A stretch of DNA of 37,552 nucleotides from a virus: positions 1-37,552 of the IMG/VR virus record IMGVR_UViG_3300028025_004946; one strand, written 5' to 3'. A model generated the notes under the pieces. It had not been told where the DNA came from and searched no databases. It worked only from the letters and a program-made list of their open reading frames with translations. Made by a program: the position numbers and the translations under genes. Of this stretch, positions 1,546-19,464 are shown one piece after another. Numbering within the stretch: position 1 is the stretch's first letter; every line of letters begins with the position of its first letter.

Positions 1546-3717
1546 ATGATTCTCAATAACGCACCTCAAGCAGAGGCAATTCTTTCCAATGTTGGTGAAA
1601 TCGGCGAATTTCGTATCCGTAATTCAGCAAAAGCATTTAACATTCTTTCCAGCGGTTTGTACGCCAATAAAGTTAAGGCGATAATTCGTGAGCTGTCATG
1701 TAATGCCATTGACAGTCACACCGCAGCAGGCACCACACAACCTTTCGAGGTGCACCTGCCAACCACGTTAGAACCGTGGTTTTCCATTCGTGATTTTGGC
1801 ACTGGTTTGTCACATGACCAAGTGACCAAGATTTACACCACATATTTTGAATCAACAAAAACCGAATCTAATGAGTTTATCGGTGCTCTTGGTCTTGGTT
1901 CAAAATCTCCATTCTCTTATACTGATAACTTCACCGTCACGGCCATTCAAAATGGCCGCAAAGGCATTTATTCCGCCTTCATTAATGACGTTGGTGTACC
2001 ATCTATTGCATTGATGAATGAAGAACAGGTAACAGAACCTAATGGCGTTGAGGTAAAATTTTCCGTCAATGACAGGTATGACTTTATCAAATTCTCTGAT
2101 GAAGCACGTAGCGTGTATCGCTGGTTCCCTGTATTACCTACAATCACAGGTAATACAATCACCATTGAACCTGTTGAATATGAAACCAAGAATATTATTC
2201 CTGGTGTACATTCAGTTAAACCTGATAGATATAGTCGTTATTCATCCATCGCTGTGATGGGTAACATTGCATATCCTATTGAAGTACCACAAGCAGAACA
2301 AGCACTTGAAGGCCTACACAAATTGTTGAAATGTGGCCTTGTTATGGAGTTTGGCATTGGTGAGTTAGATTTTCAAGCAAGCCGTGAAGGTTTGTCCTAC
2401 ATTCCATTGACCATTGATTCTATTCGCAAAAAATTGGTTACAGTTAACTCTGCATTGTCCAAGGTTCTTGCTACTGAAGCTGATGCGGTTGAAGGTGAAT
2501 GGGAACGTTCCAAGTTTTTGTATGAAAAGAAACGCCAAGATTTGTGGCAAGGTGCGGTGCTTGATTATGTGACTGCCACCAATTTTCCTTTGTTTGATGT
2601 AACCAACACTTGGAATCATTCATTTGATATCAAGGCCAATTTGCTTGATTTGAAATCTATGAACATTCATATCAAGCAGTTTGAATCTGAGCGTGGTGTT
2701 AACCGTTGCAAGACTCTCAGTCATTCTACATCTTATGATAAAGACCAAAAGCGTATTGAATATTTCAATATCGAGGTTCACGACAGCACAATTTTTGTTG
2801 AGAATGATTGTAAGACAGGTTCATTTGAACGTGCTAAGCACCATTTCCGTAACAAAGAGAAGAAAAACACTTATCGTGAAACTGTGTTTGTGTTGGATAG
2901 GTTGCATAAAGAACATCCAATGGACTTGGTTTCTTTCTATGCAATGTTGCACAATCCACCTGCTGCACAGCGTATGGCTGCATCAAGTTTGATTGAGAAA
3001 CCACGTAAGGCTGGTGTTGGTAATGGTTTCGGTAAAAACGTAACCATTCTCAAACTTGAAAAGCGTGGTGGATCATCTAGACGATCTGCTTCAGATGAAT
3101 TGGTGTGGCGTGCTGCAGGTACTTTGGACACATTTAATAAAAATCTAAAGATGTACTATGTACCAATGACTGGTTTTGTACCACAATTCAAAAAATTGAA
3201 TACACATTACGGTGTAACCGATTTGGCAGATTTGCTGCGTAGAACTGGTATGCCAGAATTTGCCATCGACCTATATGGTGTGCGTAAAGGTGACATTGAG
3301 GACATTAAGAAAATGTCCAACTGGATCAACATTGAAGACCATATTACTACCGTTTTGACTGGGTTAAATACCAAAATCGGCATGGCTTCCGTGTTGGAAG
3401 GGCTTGACAAACACCAGATTTTCGGTTATAATTACCAAAAAGTGGTTGATGGTGTTGATACAAAGAGTCCCGCAAAAATGTTCTTGGACAGTTTTGTTGG
3501 CCTACCAAAGATGACTGGTATTCATTGGCTGCAACGATTGATGCAAAACATGAATATTCAAAATAATATTGATGTTAAAGCTGTGACTGCACAGTTTAAA
3601 GTCAAATTGATGGAATTCTCAAATAGATATCCATTGATAAACAAGTTTGATTCTCATGCAGATGAGAATGATGTGTGTGAGTATGTTAATTTAATAGATA
3701 CAGTGAAAGGTATTTAA
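1546..3717 (+). CDS. rIIA: RIIA protein, GHKL-type ATPase domain
   Basis: A 723-residue protein, almost the length of T4 RIIA (725 aa). The N-terminal third carries the GHKL (gyrase/Hsp90/histidine-kinase/MutL) ATP-binding boxes: RELSCNAID near residues 48-56 (E49, N53), DFGTGL at 83-88, and a GALGLGSKSP lid motif near 113-122. The rest has no obvious domain. RIIA and RIIB in T4 are membrane-associated proteins that keep infection productive in lambda lysogens and affect lysis timing; the exact biochemistry is unresolved. The next gene, rIIB, follows after 1 base, as in T4, which strongly supports the call. Confidence 0.92.
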   Translation: MILNNAPQAEAILSNVGEIGEFRIRNSAKAFNILSSGLYANKVKAIIRELSCNAIDSHTAAGTTQPFEVHLPTTLEPWFSIRDFGTGLSHDQVTKIYTTYFESTKTESNEFIGALGLGSKSPFSYTDNFTVTAIQNGRKGIYSAFINDVGVPSIALMNEEQVTEPNGVEVKFSVNDRYDFIKFSDEARSVYRWFPVLPTITGNTITIEPVEYETKNIIPGVHSVKPDRYSRYSSIAVMGNIAYPIEVPQAEQALEGLHKLLKCGLVMEFGIGELDFQASREGLSYIPLTIDSIRKKLVTVNSALSKVLATEADAVEGEWERSKFLYEKKRQDLWQGAVLDYVTATNFPLFDVTNTWNHSFDIKANLLDLKSMNIHIKQFESERGVNRCKTLSHSTSYDKDQKRIEYFNIEVHDSTIFVENDCKTGSFERAKHHFRNKEKKNTYRETVFVLDRLHKEHPMDLVSFYAMLHNPPAAQRMAASSLIEKPRKAGVGNGFGKNVTILKLEKRGGSSRRSASDELVWRAAGTLDTFNKNLKMYYVPMTGFVPQFKKLNTHYGVTDLADLLRRTGMPEFAIDLYGVRKGDIEDIKKMSNWINIEDHITTVLTGLNTKIGMASVLEGLDKHQIFGYNYQKVVDGVDTKSPAKMFLDSFVGLPKMTGIHWLQRLMQNMNIQNNIDVKAVTAQFKVKLMEFSNRYPLINKFDSHADENDVCEYVNLIDTVKGI
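3404..3432 (+). promoter_or_regulatory. Perfect sigma70 promoter inside rIIA
   Basis: TTGACA (3404-3409), 17 bases, TATAAT (3427-3432), matching the E. coli consensus at all 12 positions, lies within rIIA about 290 bases before rIIB. Transcription from here would start near 3439 and give rIIB and the downstream ATPases independently of rIIA. Chance occurrence cannot be excluded, but other early genes in this window show the same arrangement. Confidence 0.6.
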
Positions 3718-18853: not shown

Positions 18854-18882
18854 TTGACATTCTAAATAATTTAATGTATAAT
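18854..18882 (+). promoter_or_regulatory. Perfect sigma70 promoter of the tmRNA-pqqA locus
   Basis: TTGACA (18854-18859), 17 bases, TATAAT (18877-18882), directly after the adhesin gene. The start site would be near 18888, a few bases before the tmRNA acceptor piece, so a host-type promoter should express the locus strongly. Confidence 0.85.
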
Positions 18883-18887
18883 GTGAA

Positions 18888-18954
18888 GTTATTGCTGTAT
18901 GAAGCAAAGAGAAAAGTGTTCTGGACGGGGGTGCGAATCCCCCCAGGTCCACCA
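18888..18954 (+). ncRNA. ssrA: tmRNA acceptor piece (permuted, 3' half)
   Basis: The 3' part of a two-piece tmRNA, encoded upstream of the 5' part. It has a 5-bp T stem (GGGGG 18927-18931, CCCCC 18939-18943) with 7-base loop TGCGAAT, then CAGGTCC (18944-18950), a discriminator A and an encoded CCA (18952-18954). CAGGTCC pairs with GGGCCTG at 19120-19126 over 7 bp, including a G3-U70 pair, the identity element for alanyl-tRNA synthetase. TGCTGT (18893-18898) can pair with ACAGCA (19161-19166) as helix P2. The 5' end is inferred from the promoter. Confidence 0.88.
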
Positions 18955-18966
18955 TAAAGAAATTTG

Positions 18967-19131
18967 ATGAAACCAAAAAAAGTAAAACAGTATTTTGTTA
19001 TAGTAGACAAAGATGACACAGTAAAAAGAGTGTGTTGGGCACCTTTACTTTGGGATATTCCTAACCTGGGATATCGTTTTACAGGATTTGACGGTGGTAT
19101 TCCAAAGTTTCTTTATGTTGGGCCTGCATAG
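18967..19131 (+). CDS. 54-residue ORF between the tmRNA pieces
   Basis: An open frame fills the intervening segment. It starts at ATG 18967 with only a weak site (AAAGAAA) and ends at a TAG (19129-19131) that is bases 10-12 of the tmRNA coding piece. The product is basic at the N-terminus (MKPKKVKQYF) and ends KFLYVGPA. No family is recognised. Normal tmRNA maturation at 19120 would cut this message before its stop codon. It may be a real gene or an accident of the spacer. Confidence 0.45.
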   Translation: MKPKKVKQYFVIVDKDDTVKRVCWAPLLWDIPNLGYRFTGFDGGIPKFLYVGPA

Positions 19132-19294
19132 TTTCGACAGGGCAAGTAGTAACAGAGTGGACAGCACGGTAGGCGATGACCGTTAATCAAGCAAAAAAAC
19201 GTAAATGCAAACGACAGCTCTTATGAGTACGCATTAGCAGCCTAAACACTGCTTAGGGTTTCGGTTGGTTTCCTCGTAACAGAATAACCAACCA
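19120..19294 (+). ncRNA. ssrA: tmRNA coding piece (permuted, 5' half) with tag ANDSSYEYALAA
   Basis: It starts with the acceptor strand GGGCCTG and the D-arm-like AGTTTCGACAGGG typical of tmRNA. CGGT...ACCG with GAT...ATC (about 19167-19189) can form pseudoknot PK1. After an A-rich stretch the reading frame resumes at GCA 19207 and encodes ANDSSYEYALAA, stop 19243-19245. CCTAA...TTAGG around the stop is helix P5. A GGTTGGTT/AACCAACC hairpin (19263-19293) may mark the end; the true 3' end is uncertain. With alanine from the acceptor piece, the tag ends in ALAA, the ClpXP-type degron. Function: rescue of ribosomes on broken mRNA. Confidence 0.9.
19257..19294 (+). repeat. Hairpin repeat, copy A (end of tmRNA piece)
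   Basis: GGTTTCGGTTGGTTTCCTC followed by AATAACCAACC. It forms an 8-bp hairpin with a 15-base loop. A shorter version recurs at 19410-19440 on the far side of pqqA, with the same GGTTTCG, GGTTTCCTC and AATAACCAA blocks. Confidence 0.75.
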
Positions 19295-19322
19295 ATTTCA
19301 AAAACTTAAAAAAGGAATCACT

Positions 19323-19397
19323 ATGAAATGGTCTACACCTCAAGCAAGCAATATGCGTTTCGGTTTTGAAATCACAATGTATATTGCCAATCGGTAA
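19323..19397 (+). CDS. pqqA: PqqA-like PQQ precursor peptide
   Basis: A 24-residue peptide with AAGGAA 9 bases before the ATG. It reads MKWSTP...MRFGFEITMYIANR. PqqA peptides of bacteria are 22-24 aa or slightly longer, begin MxW..P, carry R.G.E.T.Y and end near N/S-R. Here Glu16 and Tyr20 have the obligatory E-x-x-x-Y spacing; PqqE joins these two side chains to start pyrroloquinoline quinone synthesis. Compared with Klebsiella PqqA as I remember it, about 11 of 23 positions are identical. No pqqB-E genes are in the window, so the host's enzymes would be used. PQQ is the cofactor of methanol and other alcohol dehydrogenases. Confidence 0.82.
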   Translation: MKWSTPQASNMRFGFEITMYIANR

Positions 19398-19409: not shown

Positions 19410-19440
19410 GGTTTCGTTTGGTTTCCTCAATAACCAATCA
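19410..19440 (+). repeat. Hairpin repeat, copy B (after pqqA)
   Basis: GGTTTCGTTTGGTTTCCTC followed by AATAACCAATCA. It forms TTGGTT/AACCAA (6 bp, loop TCCTCAAT). It matches copy A at 19257-19294 except for a deletion in the loop. No T-run follows, so a terminator role is doubtful. Confidence 0.7.
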
Positions 19441-19464
19441 TTTTATTAACTTTAGGAGTTTATT

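Follow-up and report, generated by a model that had tools for sequence, protein, structure and literature searches.

A T4-like phage carries pqqA, a likely auxiliary gene for the precursor peptide of PQQ, behind a permuted tmRNA

Introduction

PQQ serves methanol dehydrogenases as their cofactor, and these enzymes drive a large part of one-carbon oxidation in aquatic habitats. A Glu and a Tyr of the PQQ precursor peptide, PqqA, are the residues joined when PQQ is made. T4-like phages are known to carry single-protein auxiliary metabolic genes, for example cyanophage psbA, which re-supply a component lost at host shutdown.

A viral PqqA was described in 2020, together with a methanol dehydrogenase, in the putative methylophage VP_266 from Lake Baikal (PMC7678222), and a 2026 paper on viruses of reservoir sediment also lists viral pqqA (PMC13188868). 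A preliminary description of the present locus had supposed that viral pqqA might be unreported, which these two papers contradict. The OM43 phages isolated before MEP401/402 were Venkman, MEP301 and Melnitz (PMC10580990). Phage pqqA is unmentioned in the texts of the papers on Melnitz (PMC9004378), MEP401/402 and MEP301.

Results

Phage genome surrounding pqqA

The window is the whole stretch of 37,552 nucleotides that was analysed, positions 1 to 37,552 of IMG/VR record IMGVR_UViG_3300028025_004946. It encodes rIIA, rIIB, a CobS-like AAA protein, PhoH, an exonuclease and a helicase loader. A gp32-type single-strand binding protein, a DNA end protector, tail tube, tail tube cap and baseplate proteins are also encoded. 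The window belongs to the genome of a T4-like myophage, and pqqA is flanked on either side by T4-like genes. These flanks, the same slot in related viral contigs and the presence of pqqA in phage isolates place the gene in a genuine phage genome and not in host contamination.

The pqqA gene and its peptide

The pqqA ORF lies at 19,323–19,397 on the plus strand. It comprises 75 bases, with an ATG start, 24 codons and a TAA stop, and encodes the peptide MKWSTPQASNMRFGFEITMYIANR. A ribosome-binding site, AAGGA, is located at 19,312–19,316 (+), about 6 nt 5' of the ATG. The Pfam profile PF08042 matched the peptide with 31.9 bits (cut-off 21.1, E 1.3e-7) and the TIGR02107 equivalog with 35.4 bits (cut-off 20, E 6.7e-9), both above the curated cut-offs. 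It was the only PqqA match in the whole record (E 4.2e-8). Glu16 and Tyr20 are present in the E-x3-Y spacing, and the full PqqA pattern is retained including the R-x-G-F-E core and the C-terminus. With 24 residues, its own ATG and its own AAGGA, the product corresponds to a stand-alone peptide (about 22–29 residues, own start and ribosome site). The profile matches confirmed the predicted product of 19,323–19,397 as a bona fide PqqA. The preliminary description had read a 24-codon gene with its own ribosome site, Glu16 and Tyr20 in E-x-x-x-Y spacing and a PqqA product from the letters alone, and all of this was recovered.

tmRNA, promoter and hairpins beside pqqA

The gene is directly 3' of a permuted two-piece tmRNA (ssrA) with the tag ANDSSYEYALAA; a position after ssrA had been given in the preliminary description. 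The tmRNA was identified at 18,857–19,300 (+) using RF04321, RF01850 and ARAGORN. RF04321 scored 136.5 bits at 18,893–19,245 and RF01850 (beta_tmRNA) covered 18,857–19,300. A sigma-70 promoter matching the consensus at 12/12 positions (TTGACA-17-TATAAT) lies at 18,854–18,882 (+), upstream of both tmRNA and pqqA. No promoter comparable to it was seen in the gap between the two. As a 12/12 promoter precedes the tmRNA and no good promoter separates it from pqqA, both are probably co-transcribed from 18,854–18,882.

The tmRNA ends in a hairpin at 19,257–19,298 (+), which was recognised by direct repeats D3 and D5 and has a folding energy of -12 kcal/mol. A degenerate second copy, found by direct repeats and folding at 19,410–19,451 (+), closes the pqqA cassette, so that pqqA is bracketed by the two. 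The same bracketing was found in L092, where pqqA also follows a permuted tmRNA and the hairpin copies are at 3,064 and 3,297. It is as if the genes behind ssrA had been added together with a copy of the ssrA end. L344, L347 and L349 each have a related hairpin that lies some 500 nt farther downstream.

A 54-codon ORF, MKPKKVKQYFVIVDKDDTVKRVCWAPLLWDIPNLGYRFTGFDGGIPKFLYVGPA, is located at 18,967–19,131 (+) within the intervening segment of the tmRNA and ends in the tmRNA coding piece. It had no match in Pfam or PHROG and no homologue among the loci compared. Permuted tmRNAs are common in the T4-like group of the window (L287, L289–L295 and L305–L364). Their tags differ widely among close relatives and include ANDSSYEYALAA, ANDSQFALAA, ANDEKFALAA and ANDESYRIAA, among others. 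In L062 (2,898–3,359) a pqqA of another PqqA type is also directly 3' of a permuted tmRNA, which suggests that the linkage of pqqA and tmRNA arose more than once.

pqqA in the phage group of the window

Relatives were gathered by gp32. Eighty viral contigs matched and 35 of these had a permuted tmRNA, giving 36 tmRNA-bearing loci with the window included. pqqA was immediately 3' of the tmRNA in five of the 36 (the window, L307, L308, L315 and L324), of which L307 and L308 possibly derive from a single virus. In L309 pqqA is at the contig start and the tmRNA is lost beyond the contig edge. The closest gp32 relative, L287 (98%), represents the empty site: the next gene comes straight after its tmRNA. 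A separate count found pqqA in 4/40 records of the group, and it was absent from the group's 172–180 kb records. Among the gp32 relatives pqqA is an accessory gene, in the same slot behind ssrA whenever present. L315 and L324 have a 12/12 promoter directly 5' of pqqA.

Viral pqqA elsewhere

Annotated phages were searched by tblastn. PqqA was found in the Methylophilaceae phage isolates Melnitz (four strains), P19250A, MEP301, MEP401, MEP402 and Venkman, and in the uncultured podovirus ctXG6705. The gene was intact in all Methylophilaceae phage isolates examined (Venkman, MEP301, MEP401/402, Melnitz and P19250A); the survey covered phages matched by tblastn, and isolates lacking pqqA may exist. 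Set against the list in PMC10580990, the gene is present in each of the five OM43 phages that have been named and in one freshwater phage. Six phage records were examined, and in these pqqA was either unannotated or overlaid by a different annotated ORF on the opposite strand. Standard annotation misses pqqA because the gene is so short.

IMG/VR was scanned with two degenerate DNA patterns. The first fixed the Glu and the Tyr, and for this reason a second was run that left both free. At least 159 loci were obtained, each with an intact PqqA of 23–25 residues. In the viral set, 167/167 loci had this length and an ATG start. The isolates and these loci bear out the preliminary description in its view that viral pqqA is widespread and that gene callers overlook it. 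One candidate, L008 (CAKLQF020000010.1, labelled Acinetobacter phage MD-2021a), was rejected and left out of the viral set; it has pqqB-E and ppk alongside and looks like a bacterial chromosome.

In some large phages (L011, L048, L064 and L002) pqqA adjoins tRNA genes, including arrays of 13–28 tRNAs. In a 72-kb viral record (L060/L389, IMGVR_UViG_3300025120_009955) it is about 6 kb from a full-length PQQ alcohol dehydrogenase, and a tail assembly chaperone is nearby.

Selection and translation signals

Glu and Tyr were conserved in 120/120 viral loci among the matches listed, under the pattern that specified neither. This bears out the conservation of both residues that was anticipated for related phages. 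For loci among the matches listed, pN/pS was 0.106 (0.076/0.72) over the nine C-terminal codons left free in the second pattern and 0.36 over the free codons of the first, with codons fixed by the search excluded; the sequences are related and hence not independent. Synonymous sites of viral pqqA were strongly diverged. A Shine-Dalgarno 4-mer was present 5' of 158 of 166 viral pqqA genes (95%) compared to 7.7% of ATGs picked at random from those contigs. Judged by the invariant Glu and Tyr, the low pN/pS and the Shine-Dalgarno excess, the viral pqqA are translated genes under strong purifying selection.

Pathway partners and host

PqqE above the cut-off was found in 0/50 pqqA-bearing viral records tested, the window record included. 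No pqqB-E genes were seen in the window DNA or in the viral loci compared, with the exception of L008 (apparent bacterial DNA). The phage would thus supply only the substrate, in line with the earlier view that a phage PqqA needs the host PqqB-E. A PQQ alcohol dehydrogenase was present in only 1/38 pqqA-bearing viral records tested.

Genomes of the Methylophilaceae family carried pqqA in 120/120 cases, with a median of 4 copies and up to 12. Methylotroph chromosomes (L178, L184, L200, L203, L210, L233, L237 and L243) often had 2–3 copies within a few kb. The other pqq genes typically occur as single copies or single sets (PMC4109929). In Methylosinus trichosporium transcript levels were 11857 for pqqA and 166 for pqqE, a ratio of about 70-fold (PMC3615186). 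Copy numbers and transcript excess mark PqqA as a peptide that hosts consume in bulk. Over-expression of pqqA alone in Gluconobacter is reported to give more PQQ, in work cited in PMC7936290, and work cited in PMC9851590 has cell extract turning added PqqA into PQQ.

The nearest cellular peptide to the window PqqA was MKWQTPAASDMRFGFEITMYIANR, from Comamonadaceae/Burkholderiales genomes, with three differences. The Methylophilaceae type, MWTTPAATEMRFGFEVTMYVMNK, was further away. The preliminary description had assumed infection of a methylotroph. As the window peptide is Burkholderiales-like, such a host is possible and not established. Several Comamonadaceae-type genomes with a near-matching PqqA carry PQQ alcohol dehydrogenases, and in one Comamonadaceae genome with such a PqqA pqqBCDE adjoins pqqA. 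The gene was found in only 20/101 genomes of the Comamonadaceae-type family, which could explain why pqqA is patchy in the phage group of the window. The tmRNA was rejected as a host identifier; the Comamonadaceae-type genomes have a one-piece tmRNA with the tag ANDERFALAA and that of the phage is permuted. gp32 was also sought in 301 genomes belonging to that family; no match was obtained, and as the search had no positive control it carries no weight on host identity.

Discussion

Role of phage PqqA

It is likely that the window encodes a functional PqqA that serves as an auxiliary metabolic gene, sustaining PQQ through the host PqqB-E. Early in infection, pqqA and the tmRNA would be transcribed together. 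Host PqqD would bind the phage peptide, host PqqE would cross-link Glu16 and Tyr20, and the host pathway would process the cross-linked peptide to PQQ. A T4-like phage would shut down host mRNA while the host enzymes persist. PqqA would run out first because it is the sole component of the pathway that is consumed one-for-one. Phage PqqA alone might then maintain or increase the PQQ available to alcohol dehydrogenases, with energy flow kept during infection. An increase in PQQ is plausible on the evidence of the gene sequences; extra PqqA would do little if host PqqE or PqqD limits flux. Two observations count against a role in PQQ supply: pqqA is a minority gene in its own phage group (5/36; 4/40) and a PQQ alcohol dehydrogenase accompanies it in only 1/38 viral records tested.

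Other readings were weighed against this one. The preliminary description had offered a decoy as the opposite possibility: the phage peptide would occupy host PqqD/PqqE and drain PQQ, either to the detriment of the host or to release SAM and redox power. A small PqqD-binding peptide could indeed compete with host PqqA, and no phage tested supplies the rest of the pathway. A decoy should bind the maturation enzymes and be unprocessable, whereas here the residues needed for processing are invariant in the sequences. It would gain nothing from Glu and Tyr, yet both were kept in all 120 loci among the matches listed, and this disfavours it. The phage peptides are also no more distant from host PqqA than host peptides are from each other, and a peptide open to cross-linking by PqqE would contribute to PQQ and not drain it. 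We regard a decoy as very unlikely.

The occurrence of pqqA in just 5/36 related loci, in a variable slot behind ssrA, would also fit a recently captured host gene that has no function in the phage. The low pN/pS at free codons beside strongly diverged synonymous sites argues against such a passenger, as do the conserved Shine-Dalgarno sites, the 12/12 promoters dedicated to pqqA in L315 and L324 and the presence of the gene in unrelated phage groups. Capture without function is accordingly given very little weight. A PqqA cross-linked by host PqqE might instead serve another product or signal, given that precursor peptides of the PqqA class are divertible and that in one study co-expression placed a family of peptides annotated as PqqA close to defence systems (PMC11118758). 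The whole PqqA pattern is kept, R-x-G-F-E core and C-terminus included, however, and no maturation enzyme was seen in the phage records tested. A diverted use of this kind appears highly improbable.

Distribution and significance

New here are the presence of pqqA in all cultured methylophages examined, its wide distribution in IMG/VR and its strong constraint. The gene also extends to phages with a Burkholderiales-like PqqA and has a fixed slot behind ssrA in one phage group. We lean towards the view that pqqA is a near-universal, systematically overlooked gene of phages infecting PQQ-dependent methylotrophs, which several unrelated phage groups acquired and which also reached phages of other Betaproteobacteria. 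If so, it would exemplify auxiliary genes through which a virus contributes nothing but a ribosomal peptide substrate, sacrificed to make a cofactor, and the host contributes the whole enzyme pathway. If phages routinely re-supply the PQQ precursor, infected methylotrophs may continue methanol oxidation, which is relevant to the turnover of methanol in lakes and seas. Genes of peptide size are undercounted in catalogues of viral metabolic genes. Cultured systems exist (MEP401/402 on FZCC0133, Venkman or Melnitz on H5P1) and make a direct test feasible; the medium used for H5P1 contains PQQ (PMC9004378), which would hide an effect of phage pqqA.

Comparison with known systems

VP_266 is also an aquatic phage classed as T4-like with a virus-encoded PqqA, read as supporting PQQ-dependent methanol oxidation (PMC7678222). 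It carries a methanol dehydrogenase and was assigned to Methylophilaceae hosts, whereas no such gene is seen in the window record, where PqqA is Burkholderiales-like and encoded behind a permuted tmRNA. The OM43 phage Melnitz (PMC9004378) is likewise a T4-like aquatic phage with a permuted two-piece ssrA; its pqqA adjoins a tRNA-Leu and is not behind ssrA as in the window.

The orphan extra pqqA copies of Methylophilaceae (PMC4109929) are similar in being stand-alone, away from pqqBCDE and feeding one shared pathway. The PqqA peptide most frequent in phages was the same as the one most frequent among the host peptides found. Those copies are chromosomal and cellular, whereas pqqA of the window is phage-borne. 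With genes of the psbA type it would share the principle that the phage re-supplies what the host would run out of. PqqA differs from their products in being neither an enzyme nor a structural subunit; it is a peptide substrate that is destroyed to build a cofactor.
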